Assembly: GCA_030018435.1 (NCBI GenBank)
Contig: JASEEY010000009.1
Location: 1-49,008, forward strand
Length of the DNA: 49,008 bases
Direction of reading: 5' to 3'
From: Methanocellales archaeon
GTDB taxonomy: Archaea > Halobacteriota > UBA148 > JAUWXC01
In this document: piece by piece, positions 1 to 25,398 of the stretch
How positions within the stretch are numbered: the stretch's first letter is position 1
Layout of the letters: every line of letters begins with the position of its first letter
Program-made: the position numbers and the translations under genes
Notes under the pieces: model-generated
The model's database searches: none
Told to the model about the DNA's origin: nothing
What the model saw: the letters and a program-made list of their open reading frames with translations, nothing else

Positions 1-531
<531 letters not shown>

Positions 532-13357: not shown

Positions 13358-13388
13358 TTCTCTTTGGAATATTTTATGCAACAATCTA

Positions 13389-13396
13389 TTTATATC
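13389..13396 (+). promoter_or_regulatory. TATA box for homocysteine operon
   Basis: TTTATATC, with transcription expected near 13418, which leaves a short leader holding the Shine-Dalgarno sequence GGAGG (13431-13435) before ATG 13442. The two divergent promoters share only 112 bp, so a single regulator could control both. Confidence 0.55.
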
Positions 13397-13441
13397 GGAA
13401 TAACAAAAGTGATACCAAGATATCATATAAGGAGGGGCGGA

Positions 13442-14944
13442 ATGGTAGAAAAAACAGTCCAAGAAATCAATCAGAAAATCAGGGATGGTAGTGTCCACGT
13501 TGTCACCGCCGAGGAGATGACAGAAATAGTGGAGACACTCGGCCCAAAGGGTGCAGCCAAAGAAGTGGATGTGGTCACCACTGGCACGTTCGGCGCGATG
13601 TGCTCTTCAGGTGCAATACTCAATTTTGGACACGCAGACCCGCCGATAAAAATGCAAAAAGTCTGGCTAAACGATGTGGAGGCATATGCAGGTCTGGCGG
13701 CGGTGGATGCATATATCGGCGCCACGCAGCTGTCCGAATCGAGGGGGATGGAATACGGCGGTGGGCATGTAATAGAGGATTTGGTGGCAGGGAAATCAGT
13801 GGAGCTAAGGGCTATAGCGTATGGAACTGATTGCTATCCTCGTCGCAATATCGAAACTTCGCTCACCCTTAGTGATGTAAATCAAGCGGTTATGATCAAT
13901 CCTAGAAATGCGTACCAAAGATACAATGTAGCAACCAACTCGTCGGATCGAATATTGCACACATATATGGGCCCTTTGCTCCCGAATCTTGGCAATGCGA
14001 TATACTCGGGATCCGGAGCTCTGTCACCGCTCTTCAATGATCCGACATATGCTACCATTGGGATTGGAACACGCATCTTTTTGTGCGGCGCTCATGGCTA
14101 CATAATAGGTGAGGGGACGCAACATGATCCAACGCATAACCTCGGGACTTTAATGGTCCAAGGGAATCTGAAGGAGATGAGCACTGATTTCGTGAGGGGG
14201 GCGTCCCTTTATAAATATGGAACGACGCTATACGTGGGTCTCAGCATACCTATACCAATTCTGAACGAAAATATCGCAAAACGAACAGGCATCAAGGATG
14301 CAGATATATCCACCAATGTCTTGGATTACAGCGTTCCACGTCGTTCTAGACCCACACTCGCTCGTGTCACATATGAAGAGCTAAAATCAGGAGGCATCGT
14401 CATTGGAAAGAAAGAAATTCGCACATCATCCTTGTCGAGTTTACATAAAGCTAGAGAGGTCGCCGAAACTCTTCGCGAAAGGATTAAAAAAGGTGAGTTT
14501 TACTTGAGCGAGCCTGTCGGCAAAATCTCAACTAAGACCGTATTCAAACCAATGAGGCAAACGGGCGGGCTACCGCTTGTCAAGGATGTCATGACGGATG
14601 GTATCGGCACAATAAAACCAGATGTGAGCATCGAAGAGGCGGCGAAGAGAATCATAAAGGGGGGATTCAACCATCTCCCAGTGGTATCCGATGATGGTAG
14701 GTTAGTCGGCATCGTCACCGCCTGGGACATATCAAAGGCAGTTGCTATGAAAAAGCGGGGCAAAGTGGAGCAGATCATGACGCGCAAGGTTATCGTGGTT
14801 AGCCCGAGTGACCCCATAGACATAGCTGCCCGCAAATTAGAACAGTACAACATCTCTGCACTGCCAGTAGTCGATGCCAAGCGAAAGGTCATCGGCATTA
14901 TCACCAGCGAGGACCTGAGCAAATTGCTCGCAGGAGGGACGTAA
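13442..14944 (+). CDS. L-aspartate semialdehyde sulfurtransferase (DUF39) with CBS pair
   Basis: Homologue of Methanosarcina MA1821 (COG1900, DUF39), which makes homocysteine from aspartate semialdehyde and a reduced sulfur source. 500 aa: DUF39 domain at about 1-370, then two CBS motifs at about 380-500. Cys54 (in GAMCSSGA) and Cys131 (in GTDCYPR) occupy the positions of the two functionally important cysteines recalled for MA1821. Another Cys occurs in FLCGAHG. ATG 13442 has GGAGG 7 nt upstream; a longer in-frame start at 13364 is less likely. First gene of a three-gene operon. Confidence 0.92.
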   Translation: MVEKTVQEINQKIRDGSVHVVTAEEMTEIVETLGPKGAAKEVDVVTTGTFGAMCSSGAILNFGHADPPIKMQKVWLNDVEAYAGLAAVDAYIGATQLSESRGMEYGGGHVIEDLVAGKSVELRAIAYGTDCYPRRNIETSLTLSDVNQAVMINPRNAYQRYNVATNSSDRILHTYMGPLLPNLGNAIYSGSGALSPLFNDPTYATIGIGTRIFLCGAHGYIIGEGTQHDPTHNLGTLMVQGNLKEMSTDFVRGASLYKYGTTLYVGLSIPIPILNENIAKRTGIKDADISTNVLDYSVPRRSRPTLARVTYEELKSGGIVIGKKEIRTSSLSSLHKAREVAETLRERIKKGEFYLSEPVGKISTKTVFKPMRQTGGLPLVKDVMTDGIGTIKPDVSIEEAAKRIIKGGFNHLPVVSDDGRLVGIVTAWDISKAVAMKKRGKVEQIMTRKVIVVSPSDPIDIAARKLEQYNISALPVVDAKRKVIGIITSEDLSKLLAGGT

Positions 14945-15331
14945 ATGAAGATGCTATTGCATTTCAACCCCCAGATAATAAAAAAACCGCTGATCGCAGA
15001 AGTTGTATTAGAAACAGGCGTTTTAGTGAACATCAATAAAGCGACTATAGATACTGCCGGCGGCAAGTTAATCATAAACGTTCCTGATAAAGATGCAAAG
15101 AAGGTGATTAAATCATTTAAATCACGTGGGGTTGACGTCGTCACTCTGGAAAAACCGATTATTATGATAGATGAGGAGTGTGTGCATTGCGGCGCTTGCA
15201 TCTCAGTCTGCCCAACCAACGTGTTTAAGTATGAGGCCGACGGCAGCGTCTCCGTAGATTATAAGGAGTGTATCCAATGTGGAGCATGCATAACAGCCTG
15301 TCCGCACAACGCTCTTAAACTGTCTGAGTGA
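14945..15331 (+). CDS. NIL domain and two-[4Fe-4S] ferredoxin, homocysteine synthesis partner
   Basis: 128 aa, homologue of MA1822. N-terminal NIL domain (about 1-75), then two CxxCxxCxxxCP clusters (CVHCGACISVCP and CIQCGACITACP) binding two [4Fe-4S] centres. It supplies electrons to the DUF39 enzyme, probably for persulfide reduction. The start ATG follows the upstream stop codon directly, which implies translational coupling. Confidence 0.93.
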   Translation: MKMLLHFNPQIIKKPLIAEVVLETGVLVNINKATIDTAGGKLIINVPDKDAKKVIKSFKSRGVDVVTLEKPIIMIDEECVHCGACISVCPTNVFKYEADGSVSVDYKECIQCGACITACPHNALKLSE

Positions 15332-15333
15332 GT

Positions 15334-16047
15334 ATGAAAACTAGATTTCAGTTAAAGGAGACCATCGTAACGATCATCTCCGATGCTCCGTATATAGAGA
15401 CCATCCGGCAAGCGATTGTGGAGCACAGAAGACAACTTGAGCAGTACATCACATTCGACCCATTTTTTAGGGTTACGATGGAACCATATCCCCTACCAGA
15501 GGATGGACCAGAAATCGTGAAAAGATTGGTCTTGGCGGGGAATGCTGTTGGCACAGGTCCAATGGCCGCTGTAGCCGGCACCTTAGCAGAACTGGCCGTA
15601 GAGGCAGCGCTGCGCAAAGGTGCAAAGCACGTGGTAGTAGATAATGGCGGAGATATAGCATTATTCACCGATAGGCCCATATTAGTTGGAATATATGCTG
15701 GCGAGTCAGCTGTTAATAACCTGGCTTTTCAGATTGAGGCGCGGGAATCAATAATGGGGATATGCACATCCTCAGGCAAGATAGGACATTCGATCAGTTT
15801 TGGCAACGTAGATGCGGCTACGGTCGTATCCAAAAGCGCATCGCTCGCGGATGCTGCCGCGACGGCATTGGGCAATGCAGTCATTGATGACTCGAAGAAG
15901 GATATAGAAAAAGCATTCGACGTGATAAATGGTGTGGACGACATAGAGGGTGCTCTCATAATCAAAGGTAAGCACATAGGACTGTGGGGGAAACTCCCAA
16001 AGATGGTGAAGGTACCTGTAAATCCAGATTTAATCACCCGGCCATAA
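15334..16047 (+). CDS. UPF0280 (ApbE-like) protein of homocysteine synthesis
   Basis: 237 aa, COG2122/UPF0280, homologue of MA1715, genetically linked to homocysteine synthesis in Methanosarcina. ApbE-like core with NAVGTGPMAAVAGTLAELAVEAAL and HVVVDNGGDIAL; later ATVVSKSASLADAAATALGN. ATG 15334 gives MKTRFQLKET, the usual family start; GTG 15328 overlapping the upstream stop is an alternative. In M. acetivorans this gene is apart from MA1821-1822; here the three are contiguous, which supports a common function. Confidence 0.9.
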   Translation: MKTRFQLKETIVTIISDAPYIETIRQAIVEHRRQLEQYITFDPFFRVTMEPYPLPEDGPEIVKRLVLAGNAVGTGPMAAVAGTLAELAVEAALRKGAKHVVVDNGGDIALFTDRPILVGIYAGESAVNNLAFQIEARESIMGICTSSGKIGHSISFGNVDAATVVSKSASLADAAATALGNAVIDDSKKDIEKAFDVINGVDDIEGALIIKGKHIGLWGKLPKMVKVPVNPDLITRP

Positions 16048-16090
16048 TACTGACGAGCTTTTATGAAGATGCAAAATCTAGCGAAATCTA

Positions 16091-16134
16091 TTTATACAAG
16101 TAATACATAAAATAATACAAAAAATATTACAAAA
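16091..16134 (+). promoter_or_regulatory. Promoter region with TAATAC repeats
   Basis: A TATA-like TTTATACA (16091-16098) is followed by an AT-rich stretch with TAATAC twice and TATTAC once, so GTAATA and TATTAC form a loose inverted pair. This lies before the AbrB-like gene at 16168 and could be an autoregulatory operator. Functional assignment is inference only. Confidence 0.4.
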
Positions 16135-16167: not shown

Positions 16168-16368
16168 ATGAAATTCAGAACAAAATTGTGGCAGAGGGGT
16201 AAAACGAGTTTTGCGTCTACGATTCCTCGTATTGCTTTATTGCATTTGAATCCTGAAGAAAAAGAATATCATGTGGTCTGGGAGTTTAGCGAGCCCAACA
16301 AATTGATTGTAACCTTGGAGGAATCAGAGTCAAAAACCCGTCGTCCATCTGATAAAAAAGGTCTATGA
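16168..16368 (+). CDS. Small AbrB-like protein
   Basis: 66 aa. The start MKFRTKLWQRGKTSFASTIP resembles the swapped-hairpin AbrB/SpoVT fold, in which a K/R-x-S/T-x-x-x-(T/V)-P-x motif binds DNA, and matches a short archaeal group beginning MKFxTKLWQR. Residues 35-50 form the second strand pair; the tail is basic. First gene of the pilin cassette, so it may regulate it. Some such proteins serve as antitoxins, but no toxin is adjacent. Confidence 0.65.
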   Translation: MKFRTKLWQRGKTSFASTIPRIALLHLNPEEKEYHVVWEFSEPNKLIVTLEESESKTRRPSDKKGL

Positions 16369-16370
16369 AA

Positions 16371-16379
16371 AGGAGGTGA
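16371..16379 (+). promoter_or_regulatory. Perfect Shine-Dalgarno sequence before a 28-codon gene
   Basis: AGGAGGTGA is fully complementary to the 16S 3' end (TCACCTCCT) and lies 6 nt before ATG 16386. It is among the strongest ribosome-binding sites in the window and supports translation of the tiny gene that follows. Confidence 0.8.
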
Positions 16380-16385
16380 AAGTTG

Positions 16386-16472
16386 ATGAGCGATCCGCTC
16401 CTAGTGGTTCACGAAACTGCGGCTGTAACCATTTCCACCATAGTCGCACTTGCCATTCTGTTTGGATGGTAA
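16386..16472 (+). CDS. 28-residue membrane peptide
   Basis: Encodes 28 aa beginning MSDPLLVVHETAAV and ending in a hydrophobic stretch of about 15 residues that stops at FGW. Predicted single membrane helix with a short acidic N-terminal segment outside or inside the membrane. Support for a real gene is a perfect 9-nt Shine-Dalgarno match and its position just after the AbrB-like gene. No family recognised. It may be a small membrane partner of the pilin machinery or a regulatory or toxic peptide. Confidence 0.6.
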   Translation: MSDPLLVVHETAAVTISTIVALAILFGW

Positions 16473-16691
16473 TCTAAGGTGAGAATCTGATAAACGGGCA
16501 GCTAATTAACTTACTAAGACTGCAGTGATGGTGGTCAATTCTCTTTACTCAGTTGACGTTTTTACTATGTCACAGGTTATCCCTCTGCCACCATCACGCA
16601 GTTCAAATTTCTTTTTTGAAAAAGTACAATCTACTAAAAACAACCTTCACAACACTTTTAAGCAGGAAGCATTATATTTAATCGAAGAATC

Positions 16692-17168
16692 ATGCCAGGA
16701 AACATAATACATATTTGCGGCCCAGAACGTTCTGGAAAGACATATATGGCGCTTGGTCTGGCCGAAAGGCTAGAGAAGGATTTTGATTTATCGCATGTAA
16801 TCGTCGGCGTTGATGATATCCTTGCTATACAGAAAAAATTGAAAAAAGGAAAGCCTACGACGATAGTGGTAGACGCGCCAAAGGGTACGCCACACTCAAC
16901 CGCCAGTAAATACAAGCTCGTCGAAACCATGATTCATTTAGCAGCTAGAGGCAACAACGTAATAATGACCGGGTATCCTGGCAATGGTCTATATGAAGCG
17001 CTGGTTGAAACGTCGATCAAGTTCGTGGCTTCGCGCGACATCAACATAATCGGGATCGATCTGCACAGTTACAACGAACCCGATTATCTGAGGGTACTGG
17101 GTATAGAACCAAGTAAAGGTCTTATGAACAAGTACGATACGAAATTCAAAGAAGCCATAAAGAAGTAG
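16692..17168 (+). CDS. P-loop NTPase of the pilin cassette
   Basis: 158 aa with a Walker A motif GPERSGKT (residues 10-17) and a Walker B-like hydrophobic strand TTIVVDAP at about 56-63. A second strand NNVIMTGYPG could be a sensor. Shorter than hexameric secretion ATPases and lacking their Asp/His boxes, so it is not the pilus motor itself. Preceding 219 bp hold no supported gene. Placed directly before the prepilin peptidase (8 bp gap). Specific function unknown. Confidence 0.7.
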   Translation: MPGNIIHICGPERSGKTYMALGLAERLEKDFDLSHVIVGVDDILAIQKKLKKGKPTTIVVDAPKGTPHSTASKYKLVETMIHLAARGNNVIMTGYPGNGLYEALVETSIKFVASRDINIIGIDLHSYNEPDYLRVLGIEPSKGLMNKYDTKFKEAIKK

Positions 17169-17176
17169 GCTCTTGC

Positions 17177-17947
17177 ATGGCGCCGAACCTCGACGAAATA
17201 AGGATATTGGTATGCATCCCCTTTTTACTGTATTCGTGCTACTCGGATTTTAAAACCAGGCGGGTTCCCAACAAGATATGGATGCCGCTGTTTAGCGTTG
17301 GCGCAATCCTGGCGCTCCTCGATTTTTACACCCATGGAACGGACTTTCTCATGAGATTTGCACTCTCCGTGACCCTGCTCTCTACACTCGCATACCCACT
17401 CTTCAAGATAAACGCCTTTGGCGGCGCAGACGCCAAAGCCATCATCGCCCTCTCCATACTGGTTCCGACGTTTCCTTCTTTTGGTCTGTTGGGATACGAT
17501 CTCCCGCTAACCGGCATTCCGCCGCTTAATCTGTTCGCGTTCAGCGCCTTCGGAAATGCCGTATTGCTGACCCTTGTAGTGCCGGTTTCGCTCTTCATTT
17601 ACAATCTAACCCGATTAAGTCCAGAAGAATTGGCTGAAAAACCACCATATTTGTTCATAGGCTACAAATCAGAGATATCCAAACTGAAAAATCGGCACAT
17701 AAGATTAATCCAGGATTTCATTGAACAAAATGGCAATGTCATCCCAAAGTTCAGGTTTAGTGGTGTCCGGGTAGATGATGCACTCATAGAAAGACTGCAG
17801 CGCCTATCCAAAGACGGAAAAATCCCGGAAAAGGTATGGGTAATGCCTGGCATGCCTTTTATGATTTCATTATCGGTGGGATTTGCCATTACCATGGTCT
17901 ATGGAGATCTCGTCTATTTGATCACTGCACATATGTTGGGGATGTGA
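17177..17947 (+). CDS. Archaeal prepilin peptidase (A24 family)
   Basis: Membrane aspartyl protease of 256 aa that removes the class III signal of archaeal pilins or archaellins. Catalytic Asp residues are expected at YSDFKTRRVPN (Asp about 24) and in the GGADAKA motif (GxGD equivalent, Asp about 88). About six membrane helices, with a soluble insert of about 75 residues (150-225) before the last helix, as in EppA/FlaK-type enzymes. Followed by five pilin-like genes, which are its likely substrates. Confidence 0.85.
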   Translation: MAPNLDEIRILVCIPFLLYSCYSDFKTRRVPNKIWMPLFSVGAILALLDFYTHGTDFLMRFALSVTLLSTLAYPLFKINAFGGADAKAIIALSILVPTFPSFGLLGYDLPLTGIPPLNLFAFSAFGNAVLLTLVVPVSLFIYNLTRLSPEELAEKPPYLFIGYKSEISKLKNRHIRLIQDFIEQNGNVIPKFRFSGVRVDDALIERLQRLSKDGKIPEKVWVMPGMPFMISLSVGFAITMVYGDLVYLITAHMLGM

Positions 17948-17971
17948 ACCTAAAAAAGATTAAGGCATGAG

Positions 17972-18802
17972 TTGATATCTGTAATGATGCAAGCGATGCT
18001 AAATTCAGAGGAGGGCGTCTCACCAGTGGTTGGGATGCTCCTGATATTAACCATTATAATACTCTCAATAACGGTCATCTGTGTTGGGGGATTGCCTTTA
18101 ATAAATGCTGCGAGAGAGTCTGCCCACCTTCAAGGAATGCGCAACGTCTTTAATGTGCTCCATGCTGACATAGAAGAGGTGGTCAGAGGTCCTGTGACGG
18201 GCGTGGGACCTGCCAGAATCACGAGAATGAACATTGGTGGTGGTGCGTTAAGTGTGGATTCGAATCCCATTATTGGCAGATTTACGGTGAATAATGGAAC
18301 TAGTGTACTTGACGTCAATCCTGGCACCATCACATACGAATACGCTGAGCAAACGATCGCCTATGAGAACGGTGCGACGTTCTCGCAATACCAGTCTGGC
18401 TCGGTTATGGATTGCACTCCTTTGATATATACCCAGAAGGCGGATGGCGATAACATCACCGTCATGATTCACGTGATCAACATCATAGGAACAGATTCAT
18501 CTGTTGGCGGAGAGGGATTTGCAAGAGTGCTGACAAATCATACAGAATTTAATCCAATGGTCAGCACCACTGTACCAAATGCGAATTATGTGAATATTAC
18601 CATTCAAAGCGAATACTATGATGCGTGGAGTGATTACTTTATACGAGAACTTGAGCGCATCGACAAATATGATGACCTCAATATGGTAACCGAGGACTCG
18701 AACACCAAGACGGTGACGGTAACAATTAGAAACACAGGCCCAGGAATAACTGACATCTACCTGTGCGTCTATGAAACCCGGATCAGCGCGCAGGTGGAGT
18801 GA
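17972..18802 (+). CDS. Archaeal type IV pilin-like protein 1
   Basis: 276 aa. Near the N terminus, EEGVSPVVGMLLILTIIILS is the pilin N-terminal motif: cleavage before a short charged/Gly segment followed by a 20-residue hydrophobic helix. The rest is a beta-rich extracellular domain with many NxT/S sequons. TTG 17972 has AAGG about 8 nt upstream; the ATG pair at 17984 is an alternative. Likely the largest soluble pilin domain of the set. Confidence 0.8.
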   Translation: MISVMMQAMLNSEEGVSPVVGMLLILTIIILSITVICVGGLPLINAARESAHLQGMRNVFNVLHADIEEVVRGPVTGVGPARITRMNIGGGALSVDSNPIIGRFTVNNGTSVLDVNPGTITYEYAEQTIAYENGATFSQYQSGSVMDCTPLIYTQKADGDNITVMIHVINIIGTDSSVGGEGFARVLTNHTEFNPMVSTTVPNANYVNITIQSEYYDAWSDYFIRELERIDKYDDLNMVTEDSNTKTVTVTIRNTGPGITDIYLCVYETRISAQVE

Positions 18803-18806
18803 TCTC

Positions 18807-19292
18807 ATGTCCTCTCTTAAGCGATTTGCCAAGGATGAGAACGCCCAGGCGGTGACACTGGACTACATCCTCATACTCTCGCTGACCGCAATTTTTCTGG
18901 GCGGGTTACTCCTATCATTCGGCATGGTGAAAGACGTCGTCTCGGCGCAAGCGATGATGATGCAATACAGAGATGTCGGGAACGATATAGCCGGAACAAT
19001 CGCTGATGTGTACATGACCGGATTGCATAATGGAACTGCCACAAAAACGATTCAAATTCCCCTTCAAGTAGCCGGACAAAGTTACATTATCGAAACTGAC
19101 GATGGAACGCTCTATCCAGGTAGCGCGTTGCAAGCCCTTAAAATCTCGGCAGGTCGCACCGACGTTGAGGTCTACATTCTGCTTAATAACATCGACAAAA
19201 GCGTCAATGTCTCTGGTGTAGTTACCAGCAGTGCAGGGCGAATCGTGGTGCGATATGACGGGACCAATATAAACCTCAGGAGTGCTGATTAA
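18807..19292 (+). CDS. Pilin-like protein 2
   Basis: 161 aa. N terminus DENAQAVTLDYILILSLTAIF fits a class III signal: charged lead, small residues around the cleavage site, then a hydrophobic helix. C-terminal beta-rich domain with NGT and NVS sequons. ATG 18807 preceded by GGTGGAGTGAT; a longer in-frame start overlapping the upstream gene is less likely. Part of the tightly packed pilin run. Confidence 0.75.
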   Translation: MSSLKRFAKDENAQAVTLDYILILSLTAIFLGGLLLSFGMVKDVVSAQAMMMQYRDVGNDIAGTIADVYMTGLHNGTATKTIQIPLQVAGQSYIIETDDGTLYPGSALQALKISAGRTDVEVYILLNNIDKSVNVSGVVTSSAGRIVVRYDGTNINLRSAD

Positions 19293-19293
19293 G

Positions 19294-19869
19294 ATGCGCG
19301 ATATGAAGACTGATCAAACTGCTACGATCAGTGTCGACTTTATGATCGCCATCGCAATTTTTGTGGTTGCATTTCTATACGTCGCCTACTCACTTGTCGG
19401 TGCAATTACACCATATGCTGGTGAATCCAAGGAGATTTTTCCCATTGCAAGCAGGGTGAGCGAAATGCTGGTGAGCGATCCTGGAATGCCAGAGGATTGG
19501 GGGGCGCTTTGGAGTGCGAATCCTAAGGATGTCGAAAGGATTGGTTTCGCAATAAACGATGAGAACCACAACGTTCTCAATCGAGATAAAGTAAATGCGC
19601 TTATGTATGCTCATCAAGATGGCTGGTGGGAGTTCGGTGCAAAGACGAATACATCAGACGAATATGAAAATGCCACCAGAGCTCTCGGTATAAAACCCTA
19701 TGACTTTTACATGCAAATTCGTCCGATTGATGGATTCGATGCAACGGTGGCAGACGAACAGGCGGAGCAAAACATCACCAGTGCTGGTGATATCATCAAA
19801 ATAGAGCGAATCGTCACGATAAAAGATGAGGCGTATGCTGAGTATAGACTCATCCTGTGGATGTGGTAA
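19294..19869 (+). CDS. Pilin-like protein 3
   Basis: 191 aa. MKTDQTATISVDFMIAIAIF gives a short charged lead and an N-terminal hydrophobic helix with pilin character. The extracellular part is mixed alpha/beta and rich in Asp and Asn. ATG 19294 has AGGAGTG at 19278-19284, 9 nt upstream. Lies 1 bp after the previous stop and 1 bp before the next start. Confidence 0.75.
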   Translation: MRDMKTDQTATISVDFMIAIAIFVVAFLYVAYSLVGAITPYAGESKEIFPIASRVSEMLVSDPGMPEDWGALWSANPKDVERIGFAINDENHNVLNRDKVNALMYAHQDGWWEFGAKTNTSDEYENATRALGIKPYDFYMQIRPIDGFDATVADEQAEQNITSAGDIIKIERIVTIKDEAYAEYRLILWMW

Positions 19870-19870
19870 A

Positions 19871-20263
19871 ATGCTTCTTTCAGACAACAAAGCGCAGATG
19901 CATACCTTGGAGGCGATAATCGCTGCGATCCTGATGGTCGGCGCCGTGACATTTGTTACCATGACCGCGCCCATGGGCATACAACCTGCTCAGCGGTATT
20001 CAGAGGTGCAACTGAAGCTTTACGGGAGAGATGCGTTGAACGTGCTGAGCGCTGAAGGCGAACTTCAGATAAATGAGTCAGATGGCAATCTCAGAAGACT
20101 CCTGCCAGAAAACGTGGAATATGACATCATCGTCTACGATGACGCAGGCACCATCGCCTTAGATACTAACAGAATGCCTGCACCAAATGCCGTAGTTGTG
20201 TACAATATCATATCAACTGAGGATGGAATCCACGAGATCAGAGTAACGTTGTGGTACAAATGA
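19871..20263 (+). CDS. Pilin-like protein 4
   Basis: 130 aa. SDNKAQMHTLEAIIAAILM has the NxAQ-x-x-TLEAI pattern typical of archaeal pilin-like proteins (charged lead, Gln, Glu near position 5 of the helix). Short beta-rich C-terminal domain. ATG 19871 is preferred over an upstream in-frame start inside the previous gene because GGATGTGGT precedes it. Overlaps the next gene's start by 4 bp. Confidence 0.75.
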   Translation: MLLSDNKAQMHTLEAIIAAILMVGAVTFVTMTAPMGIQPAQRYSEVQLKLYGRDALNVLSAEGELQINESDGNLRRLLPENVEYDIIVYDDAGTIALDTNRMPAPNAVVVYNIISTEDGIHEIRVTLWYK

Positions 20264-21192
20264 TGCGAAACTTTAGAAATGATAGGGGAGCACAGATAAT
20301 CACTCTTGTTGGAGTGATAGTAGCACTTACCATAGTGCTTCTCGCCATCGTGATCAATGCCGCAGCAATCTCCGGGCAGAAGACGGTGGCCCAAGAAGTC
20401 GATGATGTGCATTACGTCTTTAAAAATGTGCGGGATGTGTATGGAGATGTGTTGAGGCAGGTTTCTGACAATGGGAGTGTCAATCCCTTTAATCCTAGTT
20501 TAACAGCTGCCGAGCTAAACATGACGAGGATGTGTAACGCTCATGGATATGCAATCCTCTTCAGAGACAAGTTCTATGATGGTTTTAATGCCACAGCTAA
20601 AATAATATTTTCAGATGGTCAGACAGTGTATACAGATACTGTAGTGTACAGGTTGCGGGCAATCCATGTCTATGATTTCGCCACTGGAGCAGGGATTGAT
20701 AAATGGGCATACAAGCCTCAGTGCAGTCCTAAACCGCCGACCAGTAACGATGTACCAAATACAGAATTTACATCAAATGACTATAACAACATATCATCAG
20801 ATGATGGAATAATGCAGGAAGATTCTGCTCAGCAAAAATATTATGCTGCCCACAGATTCAATTTCACTATAGAGGAGGATGCTCAAAACATAAATCAAAT
20901 CCATGTTTTTTGGAATGGTAAAGGGATTAATTGGAAGTCAAAAGATAATGGTGCAACGCTATATATCTGGAATTATACGTCAAATTCATATAAAGAATTC
21001 AGTTCGAATTCAAATGAAAGCGAAGTTAATTTGACAGGAACAATAACCTCCAATGTCGGAGATTACATCGATAACGGCTATCTAATTATACTGGTTGAAC
21101 AGAATGGTAGCGCCAATCCTCAGCCTTGGCAATATTCAAAAATTTATACTGACTATGTCAAAGTTGAGGTACTCTACCAAATATATGATTAA
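20260..21192 (+). CDS. Pilin-like protein 5 with large extracellular domain
   Basis: 310 aa. NDRGAQIITLVGVIVALTIVL is the class III-type segment, followed by an extracellular region with numerous N-glycosylation sequons (NMT, NAT, NIS, NFT, NYT, NLT). The ATG ATG pair at 20260/20263 overlaps the previous stop. Towards the 3' end base composition becomes AT-richer. A reading frame without a start codon follows directly in another frame (21189-21455), so the original protein may have been longer. Confidence 0.75.
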   Translation: MMRNFRNDRGAQIITLVGVIVALTIVLLAIVINAAAISGQKTVAQEVDDVHYVFKNVRDVYGDVLRQVSDNGSVNPFNPSLTAAELNMTRMCNAHGYAILFRDKFYDGFNATAKIIFSDGQTVYTDTVVYRLRAIHVYDFATGAGIDKWAYKPQCSPKPPTSNDVPNTEFTSNDYNNISSDDGIMQEDSAQQKYYAAHRFNFTIEEDAQNINQIHVFWNGKGINWKSKDNGATLYIWNYTSNSYKEFSSNSNESEVNLTGTITSNVGDYIDNGYLIILVEQNGSANPQPWQYSKIYTDYVKVEVLYQIYD

Positions 21193-21455
21193 GGACGTTT
21201 CTAAACTATAATGTCAAGGGATATGCCCTAGAAACTTTTCAAGTTGCTGCGAAGAACTCTATAATTAATGCAAACCAATTACTCCAAATCCCTTTATGGG
21301 AGTTTAACGTCACAAAGGGGTTGTCAAATGGATTTTGGCTCGAACTTGAAGTTACTTCAAAAGTAGATGTGAGGATAGTAACTAGCGAGGAAGAGATAAT
21401 AGAACTAGCAACATTGGGTTATGATTGCCAACCTATTGGCACAAATAAAGGTTGA
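21189..21455 (+). pseudogene. Start-less reading frame after the pilin cassette
   Basis: An open frame of 88 codons ends at TGA 21453-21455 and begins right after a stop at 21186-21188, overlapping the pilin 5 stop. No ATG or GTG lies near its beginning. The translation is protein-like (for example YALETFQVAAKNSIINANQ and GFWLELEVTSKVDVRIV). It may be the C-terminal part of pilin 5 separated by a frameshift, or a remnant of another gene. The remaining bases to 21493 show nothing recognisable. Confidence 0.5.
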
Positions 21456-21493
21456 TGAAAAGAAAAAAATACTTGAGTAAGAATGAGTTCACC

Positions 21494-21940
21494 CTAGAAA
21501 AAACCTACAGAAATTGTTCCTGCGGTTGAGGTTAGTATACTCATAGTTCCTCCTGACACTTCTGTAGTAATAGTTCTGGGTGGCACCCCTCCATAACCAA
21601 CCGCGTAATCATGCACTTCTGGTGGAACTGGGAGGGCTTGCGGCGTTTCTGCTTGAGTTGTTATGCGAACGGTAACCCTTGGCTTTATATCCCCATTGTC
21701 TACCCATCTTTTAGCTATTGGGTCATAATGCTCTTGATCAATATGATTTACTCTTCCGCCTATAGAATGGGCTGATAAAGAAACTGCAATAGGATTTTTC
21801 GGCTTTAACTTTGAACGCCCATTTTTAAGCTCAATCGCTTTAAAAGGCTTACCATCTACCACTATATCTCTTTTCTCCTTTTTCATACTATCCATATGAG
21901 ATGCGCTAAGTATATTTAACACATTCGTTAAAGTGTACAT
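21494..21940 (-). CDS. Hypothetical protein
   Basis: 148 aa. No family recognised. A basic N-terminal part (MDSMKKEKRD onward) is followed by a Pro-rich middle and a Gly/Thr/Ser-rich C-terminal end. ATG 21895 (residue 16) is an alternative start, with AAATATAC about 20 nt upstream. No signal peptide or membrane helix. Lies on the opposite strand to the pilin cassette, at the start of an AT-rich block of unknown genes. Confidence 0.5.
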   Translation of the reverse strand: MYTLTNVLNILSASHMDSMKKEKRDIVVDGKPFKAIELKNGRSKLKPKNPIAVSLSAHSIGGRVNHIDQEHYDPIAKRWVDNGDIKPRVTVRITTQAETPQALPVPPEVHDYAVGYGGVPPRTITTEVSGGTMSILTSTAGTISVGFF

Positions 21941-22007
21941 TTACTACAATTGAAATGAGAAGGAGTTTAAGACAGATATCCTGCGCAGAGGTATGGTGAC
22001 TTGAGAC

Positions 22008-22487
22008 ATGTTAAGCAGAGACGATGAAATTAAAATCGAACAATATCGTAGATGCAGCGAGGACATACGACATTTTGATCGAGGAGTTTGGCAAATAGCA
22101 TCTATAGCTACTACAGTCGCTGGAATAATGCTTGGGATCGCCTTCACGTATTTGTCTGGAATTGTCAGGGTTTTAACCCTCTTGTCAACTTTTCTACTCC
22201 TATTGGCTTTTACAATTACCATCTCAAAGTACATCCATTTTGATGCAGCAAGAGGCATATTTATGGGGCAAATTGAAGAAGATTATTTCAAAGTGAGACG
22301 AGTTCCAGCAAAAACTCAGGATGTTAAAAAATTTTTAGAAAAGCAAAAAGAGTCACCAGTTAAACCACCAGCTAGTTGGTTTGTAAGCCAAAAAGCACAC
22401 CAATGGCTGGGAGTGGCTATATTAGGTATGACGTTATTCATGGCATTCATCACTATCTATGCTATCTATAATATCATTTATCTATAA
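22008..22487 (+). CDS. Three-helix membrane protein of unknown function
   Basis: 159 aa. Two adjacent membrane helices (about 27-48 and 52-73) and a third at the C terminus (about 134-156), with a charged cytoplasmic segment of about 55 residues between. The start region has YRRCSEDIRHFDRGVWQIAS. The layout recalls 2TM-type SLATT-like membrane proteins, but the match is too weak to name. No linked nucleotide cyclase or other defence gene is seen. Confidence 0.6.
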   Translation: MLSRDDEIKIEQYRRCSEDIRHFDRGVWQIASIATTVAGIMLGIAFTYLSGIVRVLTLLSTFLLLLAFTITISKYIHFDAARGIFMGQIEEDYFKVRRVPAKTQDVKKFLEKQKESPVKPPASWFVSQKAHQWLGVAILGMTLFMAFITIYAIYNIIYL

Positions 22488-22634
22488 TGCTATTCCAGAC
22501 CTATTATCCTATTTTAAAGTAATGTGACCTAGGAAGTTTGAACATGGTATAAGCACAAAAGGGTTCCATAAAATAGTCACGTAACTCACCAATAAATCTA
22601 AAATCGATGAACGTAAAGTTAGGTTTGGTAATCC

Positions 22635-22955
22635 ATGAAAACAAAAATCAGGAAATTTAAGGAAACAGATTTAGAAACCGTTCTGGACATCGACAGAGAA
22701 TTTCCTCCAACGTCCAGAGGGTTGATAACGAAAGATGATGCTGTGCGCTTATCTAAACAAAGCCCCAAAACGTGTTTGGTCGCGGAAAAAGGGGGCAAAG
22801 TGATTGGGTTCATATTTGGCGAACTGGGAGAGGATTCGTGTGTTGTAAGATTTCTCCAGGTTCTTCCAGAGTATTTGGGCGAAGGTATCGTTACTGACCT
22901 GATTGACGAGGTCGAAAAGTTGACGAATGCAAGAGTTTTGTTGAAAGGTAAGTAA
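22635..22955 (+). CDS. GNAT-fold protein, short
   Basis: 106 aa resembling GNAT N-acetyltransferases: IRKFKETDLETVLDID at the start, CLVAEKGGKVIGFIFGEL for strands 2-4, and RFLQVLPEYLGEGIVTDLID where motif A should be. The acetyl-CoA loop Q/RxxGxG/A is degenerate (YLGEGI), and the C-terminal part after motif A is nearly absent; typical members have about 150 aa. It may be a truncated or inactive derivative. Confidence 0.65.
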   Translation: MKTKIRKFKETDLETVLDIDREFPPTSRGLITKDDAVRLSKQSPKTCLVAEKGGKVIGFIFGELGEDSCVVRFLQVLPEYLGEGIVTDLIDEVEKLTNARVLLKGK

Positions 22956-23007
22956 AAGTATCGCTTTGAGGTGTAGTTGTTAAAGTGAAATGATAGGTGA
23001 TGGTTCG

Positions 23008-23553
23008 ATGTTACTTGAATTATTGATCCGATTTTTCCCTTCTAGAATTATTTTATGGCTTCTTTCTATAGTAATAGCTCCTCTTCAGAAAGCAGTATTA
23101 AACAGCATCTCCCACCAGGTGAAGATAAAAGAGATTGAAAGTCATCTTGAAACTGCCTATGCACATCCGCTAGTATCTTTTCGAGTTCTTTTGGATAGTA
23201 AAGCACCTATTAAACTAAGAACAGAGCGAGTCGTGGTGAGTATCAATTTAGAGGGGATACCTTTTGATAAGTTCATTTGGTCTCGAGAGGATAAAGGAAT
23301 ACACGAAGAGTTCTTAGGCGCCGTAGATGATGTGCCCGCTCTAGAGAGCGGAAATATCGTGTTTAAATATGCCCTACCCATATATTCTTATTTTAATATT
23401 GCCAGAATATACCTAAGAGGCTATATCAGATTCAGATGTTTGTTTGGTGCTTTTAATTTATTGATAAAGATAAAAGAACCGATTAAGATAAAAGATGATG
23501 AGAAAGATAAGGCTATAAGGAAGATTAAAGAATACTATAAGGATTTCTTCTAA
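23008..23553 (+). CDS. Hypothetical membrane-anchored protein
   Basis: 181 aa. A single hydrophobic N-terminal segment (about 8-30), a beta-rich middle (35-150) and a lysine-rich helical tail. ATG 23008 is chosen because GGTGATGG lies just upstream. No family recognised. Base composition is AT-rich like its neighbours. Confidence 0.55.
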   Translation: MLLELLIRFFPSRIILWLLSIVIAPLQKAVLNSISHQVKIKEIESHLETAYAHPLVSFRVLLDSKAPIKLRTERVVVSINLEGIPFDKFIWSREDKGIHEEFLGAVDDVPALESGNIVFKYALPIYSYFNIARIYLRGYIRFRCLFGAFNLLIKIKEPIKIKDDEKDKAIRKIKEYYKDFF

Positions 23554-23649
23554 GAAACCCTACAAATTTCATCTTTTTGTTCATTTACAAAAGTTTAAAA
23601 AGCAAAAGGTTAAAACCTACATTAGTATCTACTGTTGAGGGTGTTGAAA

Positions 23650-23931
23650 ATGGACAATAAGCATCATGTAAGGAGACAAAACAGATTCATGCCTAAAGTT
23701 ATTGATAATTTATTTACAGAAAGTAATTCTGAAATTGCGAGAAAAGTAAATGAAGATAAAGATTCAATGTCCCCTAAAGTGCCAGGAATAAATCATCGAA
23801 CTCATGGACATGGAGTAGGGTCTAATATCAAATATCTTCAAAAATATAGATTAAGAGGATGGAAAGCTGGAATTCAGCATGACCTGGATGATGTCAGAGA
23901 TACATTGGGGAGATACATTGGGAAGAGATGA
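23650..23931 (+). CDS. Small basic hypothetical protein
   Basis: 93 aa, rich in His, Lys and Arg, with an HRTHGHGVGSN segment in the middle. GAGGGTG precedes ATG 23650. AT-rich. No family recognised; the histidine cluster could bind metal but nothing else supports that. Confidence 0.5.
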   Translation: MDNKHHVRRQNRFMPKVIDNLFTESNSEIARKVNEDKDSMSPKVPGINHRTHGHGVGSNIKYLQKYRLRGWKAGIQHDLDDVRDTLGRYIGKR

Positions 23932-24017
23932 TAAAAGTAAAATAGGACTTGTAAAAGAATTAATTAATGTCCGAAGAAGGAAAAAGAAATTCAATAAAAA
24001 GCAATCCTCAAAGCAAA

Positions 24018-24443
24018 CTAACTCCCCTTTGGAATCGGATCAATGACCTCTAAACCGAGAGTCTTAAAAGCTTTGTCATGCGTCAAAATTCTTGTCGTGT
24101 GGTTTTTCTTCATCATGGCGACTATAGTAGTATCTCTGCCACCAATTGGCTTCTGCCATGACGTGGAAAGTTCATCGATAGATGCATCCAGATCGGATAG
24201 ATCAAACGGTTCTATCGCCATCGTAGACAGGCGCATCAATTTCTTGATTTTATTTTTGAGCTCCTCCCTAGGCATGTCCGAAACTTTGTAAAGATAATGA
24301 GAGACCTCCATCCATATGATGGTATTGGTCAGAATTTTCTCGCCAGCCCCAATAATTTCATCGACCATCGGTTTCACATATCGATGTTCTTTGGTAGATT
24401 GATCCAAGTAATAACAGAGGATATTGGCATCAATAACGATCAT
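24018..24443 (-). CDS. PIN-domain ribonuclease (VapC-like toxin)
   Basis: 141 aa PIN domain. Acidic residues expected for the metal site are visible: Asp5 in VIDANIL, Glu46 in WMEVSHY, Asp in GGRDTTIVAMM and Asp in ILTHDKAF. Ribonuclease toxins of this type cleave RNA and are restrained by an AbrB-type antitoxin. The antitoxin gene ends 4 bp upstream, and the pair is read in the order antitoxin-toxin as usual. Confidence 0.88.
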   Translation of the reverse strand: MIVIDANILCYYLDQSTKEHRYVKPMVDEIIGAGEKILTNTIIWMEVSHYLYKVSDMPREELKNKIKKLMRLSTMAIEPFDLSDLDASIDELSTSWQKPIGGRDTTIVAMMKKNHTTRILTHDKAFKTLGLEVIDPIPKGS

Positions 24444-24447
24444 TCGC

Positions 24448-24699
24448 TCACAGATTCCGTGTCCATATTTCTTTGATCTTTAGAGGGTCGATCTCCCTGA
24501 CCTTGGTTTTTTTAATCTTTTTTGCTAAATCCTCAGCCTCTTTTATGAATTCCCTTGGACTTATTGGCTTGGTGATTACAATCTCGTCATCTCGCCCCTC
24601 TATGATGACTTCGTCATTTGGTTCTATACCTGCTTTTTCCCTGATCTCACTGGGGAGTGTCAGTCTACTTCTATTATCTATCTTGGTCACTATACCCAT
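24448..24699 (-). CDS. AbrB/MazE-type antitoxin (VapB-like)
   Basis: 83 aa. The N-terminal SpoVT-AbrB fold MGIVTKIDNRSRLTLPSEIR binds DNA as a swapped dimer; the C-terminal charged helix (about 50-83) would wrap the PIN toxin. ATG 24699 is chosen for the GAGGG six nt upstream; an in-frame start 12 nt earlier is less likely. Expected to repress its own operon. Confidence 0.88.
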   Translation of the reverse strand: MGIVTKIDNRSRLTLPSEIREKAGIEPNDEVIIEGRDDEIVITKPISPREFIKEAEDLAKKIKKTKVREIDPLKIKEIWTRNL

Positions 24700-24744
24700 T
24701 GCTTCCCTCAATTACCCATAATGTGGGATTATATAAAAAGTTTT

Positions 24745-25398
24745 CTACTTCACGCCCTGAATCAGCGTGATAACCTCGTTGAACTCTTCTTCTCCATCAA
24801 TCTGGACGATTGTAGTTCCTTGATATGTGAGGTCTTCAACTGGAGTCACCGCGAACACTATGATGGTCGATCCATTGGCATTCCACATCGCCAAGATGCT
24901 CTTTACTTTTACAGAGCCGCCTTCATAGTTGATGGTACCTTCATAAATCCTGGCGTTTGCTGTATGTCCGCCAGTGATTGAGATCGTCCTGGCGTCTGTC
25001 TGTTGCAAATCAGGAACGAGTTCTCGTGCCTTTTGCAGGAACTGCTCCTCTCCTAAGCCAAATACCAAATCGGCTGGTGGGCTGATTCCCAATGGCAGCA
25101 CTAGCCGAAGGGTCATCAGGTGAGATGACACACCTGATACCAATCCCCCTGTATCGCGTGCTATCCTGCCCTCTAGAGCCTTGTCCTTGTAGACCACCAT
25201 CGAGGTATTTACCTTAATCGTGAGCCCAGATACACTCATTTCCAGCGTCTGCTTCTGCACATCTCCTTCTTGAGCCCATCCAAGCTGCGCGAGTGTAGCT
25301 TCATTTATCGTCGCGGGAGGTGCTTCTTTGGGTTCCAAACAACCAGTTGTGGCTATGAGAATCGTCAAAACGATTAGAGCTGCAATTATCTTCCTCAT
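24745..25398 (-). CDS. Secreted lipoprotein
   Basis: 217 aa. A lipoprotein signal peptide with hydrophobic core and lipobox IATTGC, Cys20 as the lipidation site. The mature part is beta-rich with no catalytic motif and a repeated strand pattern; it resembles small archaeal lipoproteins of the DUF6517 type, though this is uncertain. Faces outside the membrane. Regulation not visible. Confidence 0.75.
   Translation of the reverse strand: MRKIIAALIVLTILIATTGCLEPKEAPPATINEATLAQLGWAQEGDVQKQTLEMSVSGLTIKVNTSMVVYKDKALEGRIARDTGGLVSGVSSHLMTLRLVLPLGISPPADLVFGLGEEQFLQKARELVPDLQQTDARTISITGGHTANARIYEGTINYEGGSVKVKSILAMWNANGSTIIVFAVTPVEDLTYQGTTIVQIDGEEEFNEVITLIQGVK

Follow-up and report, generated by a model that had tools for sequence, protein, structure and literature searches.

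The peptide gene and its ribosome-binding site

The window (the whole stretch of DNA analysed, 49,008 nt) carries a very short gene between a gene for a 66-residue protein and a pilin cassette. The first-pass annotation had placed an open reading frame of 28 codons plus TAA at 16386-16472, and this placement is exact. The locus comprises the following features:

16089..16096, forward strand: TATA-like box TATTTATA, invariant in all four congeneric genomes (identified by eye against the archaeal consensus)
16102..16131, forward strand: operator-like repeats, AATACA (at 16102 and 16114) and ATATTACA (at 16124), with a period of about 12 nt
16168..16368, forward strand: upstream cistron, 66-aa small protein, its stop 17 nt before the peptide ATG
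16371..16379, forward strand: Shine-Dalgarno sequence AGGAGGTGA, a 9-nt complement of the 16S tail
16386..16472, forward strand: peptide gene of 28 codons plus TAA, encoding MSDPLLVVHETAAVTISTIVALAILFGW, with a predicted membrane helix at about residues 11-28
16518..16603, forward strand: inverted repeat, a potential RNA hairpin with arms at 16518-16535 and 16587-16603
16656..16662, forward strand: TATA-like element TTTTAAG, invariant in four genomes and also found before the ATPase gene at loci L004 and L005 (by eye)
16692..17168, forward strand: P-loop NTPase (ATPase), the next gene downstream, truncated in genome G003
523..531, forward strand: anti-Shine-Dalgarno sequence TCACCTCCT, the last nucleotides of the window's 16S rRNA match

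The 3' tail of the 16S rRNA lies within the window (the SSU match ends at 531) and reads ...GGATCACCTCCT. Its segment TCACCTCCT is the exact complement of the Shine-Dalgarno (SD) sequence AGGAGGTGA, and a 6-nt spacer, AAGTTG, separates the latter from ATG 16386, confirming the 9-nt anti-16S match and 6-nt spacing described earlier. The duplex of the SD with the anti-SD has an energy of -15.9 kcal/mol. Among the 2049 ATGs on both strands of the window, the peptide's own is the only one with an SD at least this strong. None of the 50 long non-overlapping ORFs outside the rRNA operon reaches this energy, and because a script picked the best start for each ORF of a mechanical list, the SD strengths of the long ORFs are, if anything, overstated. 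A first-order Markov model predicts 0.36 copies of the SD 9-mer per window and 0.055 copies with an ATG starting 4-9 nt behind. The window holds two copies on its two strands, the second being the antisense of the 16S tail itself.

Genome-wide (1.02 Mb), the SD followed by 4-8 nt and ATG occurs five times, against one occurrence of a reversed-pattern control. The other four sites head frames of 195, 56, 110 and 127 codons, which by eye we take to be a nitroreductase-like gene, a fragment inside a larger gene, a DUF5320-like gene and a desulfoferrodoxin, respectively; three look like ordinary genes and the remaining one is the 56-codon frame. The related genomes G001, G002 and G003 contain 2, 4 and 3 copies of the pattern, one per genome being the peptide's, and 0 of the controls. 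Taken together, these counts, controls and led frames indicate that perfect SDs are uncommon here and that most of them belong to real genes.

The encoded peptide has an estimated mass of about 2.9 kDa and contains no Lys and no Arg. It has one predicted hydrophobic segment of helix length, as the first-pass annotation had it, and this segment is kept in the three distinct forms of the peptide (best 17-residue mean hydropathy 2.13, 1.96 and 2.51). We also considered the in-frame TTG at 16383, three bases earlier, as the start; it is unconserved (TTG, TTA, TCG, TCG), whereas ATG 16386 is conserved.

Conservation and selection within one genus

The congeneric set consists of the window genome (G000), G001, G002 and G003, which is every genome of the genus examined, and the loci were located through matches to the ATPase and the 66-aa protein. 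The peptide frame is present in all four with equal length, ATG, TAA, SD and position, and AGGAGGTGAA (16371-16380) is invariant. A frame broken in relatives was the refutation that the first-pass annotation had set for itself; the frame is unbroken in 4/4 genomes at the same place, which supports the original claim of a real gene below the usual limits of annotation. All five other frames are interrupted by a stop in one or more of the four genomes. Identity to the window peptide is 89, 61 and 61% in the other congeners, and 17 of the 28 residues are invariant. Eight positions always carry a small residue, and 13, 17 and 21 belong to them. G001 and G003 are only about 2% apart around the peptide gene, so that the four genomes represent three independent lineages; the G003 peptide is identical to that of G001, with one synonymous difference in 87 nt.

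None of the 87 columns of the peptide gene is gapped, which is unremarkable given that the next 88 nt have one gapped column per pair; at 16561-16640, 3 columns are gapped against G002 and 39 against G001. Substitutions between G000 and G002 number 7/87 in the peptide and 16/88 in the nucleotides behind it, and those between G000 and G001 number 21/87 and 28/87.

Nei-Gojobori estimates of dN/dS for the peptide are 0.24 for G000-G002, 0.57 and 0.68 for G000 against G001 and G003, and 0.29-0.34 for G002 against G001 and G003. Between lineages the ratio (0.24-0.68) is not strongly low. The mean BLOSUM score over changed codons is 2.76, compared with 0.29 under column permutation, and only 3 of 20000 permutations score as high. 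An open frame together with the pairwise score is reached in 41/20000 permutations and an open frame alone in 2839/20000 (14%). Because hydrophobic codons share T in the middle position, we also used a stricter null, in which the codons are kept and the observed number of changes is placed at random. Under this null the open frame alone survives in 68-87% of the random-mutation runs. Score and open frame together give P = 0.004, 0.010 and 0.004, and residue identity alone gives P = 0.15, 0.21 and 0.015, each for three pairs that are not independent. Purifying selection on the peptide is supported, at a modest significance (P 0.004-0.010 for the conservative amino-acid changes). As judged from these alignments, the chemistry of the peptide is conserved more than its exact letters, as a membrane helix would predict.

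A profile search of the order matched the peptide in 4 of 11 genomes, all of them the congeners, and the other seven genomes gave no match at E <= 1 (two of these seven are 76% complete). Across 392 genomes of the phylum, 16 match at E <= 0.1, namely the four congeners and 12 with partial matches. The latter have per-genome E values of 0.009-0.1, and in 11 of the 12 genomes the match lies in a frame of more than 100 codons; this is the chance level for so many genomes, and these matches were rejected. Searches of viral contigs for relatives of the peptide and of PDB sequences with the peptide returned no match. Among the genomes searched, the peptide is found in one genus only.

Genes and elements around the peptide

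The 66-aa gene and the peptide form an apparent two-gene unit with a promoter of its own, as suggested by the TATA-like box and the repeats upstream. AATACA together with a further AATACA/TATTAC-type element precedes 7/7 intact relatives of the 66-aa gene in three genera; this list of loci was hand-picked, includes G009a, G009b and G007 of two other genera, and leaves out the degraded copies L016, L017, L019 and L020. Over its first 59 codons the 66-aa gene has a dN/dS of 0.03-0.28. The first-pass annotation had placed the peptide between an AbrB-like protein and the pilin cassette. The placement holds; the AbrB label was not confirmed by Pfam, NCBIfam, PDB or a low-confidence structure model. 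For the 66-aa protein of the window, Pfam and NCBIfam gave nothing at E <= 1, one of four members of its family has a weak Pfam match (AAA_24, E 0.0064), and a PDB sequence search gave no match. Its model has four strands and a mean pLDDT of 63.8, which is too weak to use; Foldseek with this weak model gave 808 matches at E <= 10 and none at E <= 0.001, and no AbrB entry is among the 50 best of the 808.

Across 392 genomes the 66-aa family yields 29 matches, many of which are partial, spread over 12 genomes; viral contigs and phage records contain no relatives. In sister genera its members are scattered and often partial. Behind one intact copy, L014, lies a 92-aa gene, itself preceded by an SD, whose C-terminus resembles a zinc finger by eye. 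The scattered copies and the context of L014 suggest a repeatedly copied regulator. G001 and G003 are about 2% apart in the flanks, whereas their 66-aa genes show 37 differences over 201 positions (dS 0.51). The divergence spans the equivalent of 16200-16368 of the window (L012/L013) and ends at the peptide SD, which looks like a local gene replacement or conversion restricted to that gene.

Behind the peptide, GTGAGAATCTG (16479-16489) follows the stop immediately and is invariant in four genomes. In the hairpin at 16518-16603, all four genomes retain 10 of the 11 inner pairs; for five of these, two genomes carry a substitution on one side only that leaves a G-U type pair. Of the 6 outer pairs, 5 are lost in between one and three genomes, and no two-sided pair change occurs among the four. 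Across the 17 pairs, 82.4% of cells pair, compared with 35-58% in slid controls; in a shuffle control the mean is 83.1% and 500/500 shuffles reach the observed value. The single-sequence fold behind the peptide is unremarkable (z -0.88). The hairpin is a possible terminator or structured 3' UTR element. The invariant TTTTAAG suggests a separate promoter for the ATPase gene. A DNA search with the region behind the peptide returned the same locus in the four congeners and matches of 15-26 bases elsewhere.

Several candidates in this region were set aside. An Rfam search of the surrounding 851 bases returned as its one match a CRISPR repeat model with E 9.6 and a score of 15 bits, below the gathering score of 39, and this match was rejected; a second short frame behind the peptide is not kept in relatives (by eye), and the region of a 60-aa ORF at 16525-16707 is gapped in relatives. 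Bacterial-type promoter and terminator scans are uninformative for an archaeon.

The ATPase has matches in 6/100 genomes, the match in G003 covering only the first 33 residues. Prepilin peptidase is present in G000, G001, G002, G004 and G009, partial or with stops in G005 and G008, and without a match in G003. The pilin at 17972 was searched in six genomes and has no match in G003. Compared with the window DNA, the G003 locus has no alignment to 16787-22660 and none to 22960-24757. This locus (L082) lacks the window-equivalent of 16787-22660, which comprises the pilin region, the prepilin peptidase and the greater part of the ATPase; at its break the start of the ATPase continues in frame into another stretch of about 95 codons. 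G003 is an 86%-complete genome in a single contig, though an assembly error could conceivably account for the deletion; the pilus genes searched there are the ATPase, prepilin peptidase and one pilin (17972).

Interpretation and alternatives

G003 keeps the peptide despite the missing pilus genes, which argues for a real small protein but makes a part of the pilus unlikely. We regard the peptide as very probably a real small-protein gene, and it is probably not a pilus part. The first-pass annotation had suggested a regulatory or assembly peptide, and the idea of an accessory or assembly peptide for the downstream type IV pilin cassette draws on the adjacency of this cassette, on the same strand, in the 3 of 4 congeners that retain it. 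This role is largely refuted by G003, which has the peptide without the ATPase body, the prepilin peptidase and this pilin. The reverse holds in G004 and G009, where ATPase and prepilin peptidase are present and the order-wide profile search found no peptide, so that peptide and pilus genes do not co-occur across genomes; we consider this role highly improbable. The same low probability attaches to a non-coding origin, in which a chance frame beside a chance SD-like motif is conserved through kinship of the genomes. The genomes are few, an open frame would not by itself be improbable and residue identity taken alone gives weak evidence, all of which would fit such an origin, but it would have to account for the SD energy, the conserved SD and ATG, the conservative codon changes and the conserved hydropathy in combination.

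Two further alternatives concern the neighbours on either side. The peptide might be the membrane-depolarising toxin of a toxin-antitoxin pair with the 66-aa protein as antitoxin-repressor, as the antitoxin-first order, the 17-nt gap, the operator-like repeats before the first gene, the hydrophobic product, the scattered and often partial 66-aa family and the local replacement between G001 and G003 would allow. Most small membrane toxins, however, carry Lys or Arg, and the peptide carries neither. Moreover, it is single-copy at one fixed locus in 4/4 congeners, the viral contigs hold no relative of the peptide, and neither viral contigs nor phage records hold one of the 66-aa protein. Outside the genus, 12 loci were given, of which L053, L054, L059, L061, L067 and L071 missed the search pattern and were therefore unscored; the six scored loci (L014-L019, seven frames) have no peptide-like frame behind the first gene, and the putative toxin gene does not travel with the antitoxin gene there. 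On balance we find a toxin-antitoxin pair unlikely. A leader peptide or regulatory 3' region, in which translation of the ORF controls the hairpin and expression of the downstream ATPase, is slightly more doubtful still. It would make sense of a hairpin right behind the ORF with most inner pairs kept, partly through G-U type changes, and of the invariant GTGAGAATCTG. Against it, TTTTAAG is kept before the ATPase in six genomes, including two in which no peptide was found, which suggests a promoter of its own for the ATPase. G003 retains peptide and hairpin although its ATPase is truncated, the amino-acid chemistry is kept beyond what translation alone would need, and the hairpin is without two-sided covariation, not above its shuffle control and unremarkable in fold.

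The best reading is that the peptide may be a subunit or regulator of a larger membrane protein; this partner is putative and is probably not the pilus machinery. From the observed sequence, SD, conservation of the frame, context and chemistry, we propose a genus-specific single-pass membrane small protein that docks onto its partner, and we give this two-cistron docking model as a whole a probability of roughly 0.55. The two genes would be transcribed from their own promoter, and the first cistron, as its context suggests, may encode a probable DNA-binding autoregulator of 66 aa. The very strong SD would drive efficient initiation on the second cistron, and the peptide would consequently be made in excess over its upstream 66-aa partner. 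The 28-residue product is predicted to insert as one helix. Its acidic N-terminal tail (D3, E10) would probably lie outside and its C-terminus at the cytoplasmic face, because it has no positive residues and by parallel with YohP. The helix may dock sideways through a small-residue face of our choosing (A13, S/T17, A/S21), and the invariant HETAAV and LFG segments may also contact the larger membrane protein. Once docked, the peptide would act as a subunit or activity modulator. In a bolder version, the peptide would be the membrane tether and the 66-aa protein the repressor of a single two-part transcription switch in an archaeon with a genome of about 1 Mb: on a change in some membrane condition, the helix would draw the repressor away from its AATACA operators to the membrane. 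This version strikes us as improbable.

Single-helix small proteins are already known as a kind, and the peptide is an addition from one genus. KdpF, CydX and AcrZ have a few tens of residues and one helix and bind a larger transporter or oxidase. Their partners are known, whereas that of the peptide is putative. Almost equal in size is YohP of Escherichia coli, with 27 aa and essentially a single membrane helix; it is reported to be inserted SRP-dependently with N-out/C-in topology, which shows that a peptide of this kind can enter the membrane, and its authors state that its physiological function needs more study (PMC7549839). YohP is bacterial and the peptide archaeal, and the likeness is one of size and helix, with no homology claimed. 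In Methanosarcina mazei, MtrR (49 aa) is described as modulating Mtr (PMC13370731) and sP36 (61 aa) as modulating AmtB1 (PMC10714827), both sitting at or moving to the membrane, and half of 314 unannotated sORF products are reported to have at most 30 aa, sORF_05 occurring mainly in the membrane fraction (PMC11456600). As far as these accounts go, they resemble the proposed peptide in being small proteins of a methanogenic archaeon at the membrane; the parallel is by function only, and MtrR and sP36 are longer than its 28 residues. Met12, of the same order as the window genome, is reported to be without Mtr (PMC11176372). MtrI of M. mazei (68 aa) is said to bind the cytosolic domain of MtrA and was found bound to a core membrane complex (PMC12774963); like the peptide, it is described as a stand-alone small-protein gene limited to part of one order. 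Our literature searches found nothing joining AbrB, archaea and a small membrane protein, which does not imply absence from print, and the titles listed for Methanocellales small proteins and type IV pili include no such peptide; otherwise they returned general papers on small proteins.

Annotation of archaeal genomes easily overlooks genes of fewer than 30 codons. In the present case the support comes from sequence alone, through complementarity to the rRNA of the same window and conservation across the genus genomes examined, and the peptide gene stands apart from its neighbours in being retained where the pilus genes beside it are missing. It offers a clean, small test object in reduced-genome archaea related to Methanocellales, and a partner, if found, would place it among the few archaeal small proteins known to modulate membrane complexes.

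As a side observation on the genomic setting, Met12 is also reported to be without methanogenesis (PMC11176372). In the window, the stretch upstream of the two-gene unit (13364-16047) holds clustered genes matching methanogenesis marker 16 (below cut-off), a NIL/4Fe-4S protein and PRK04334 (above cut-off).
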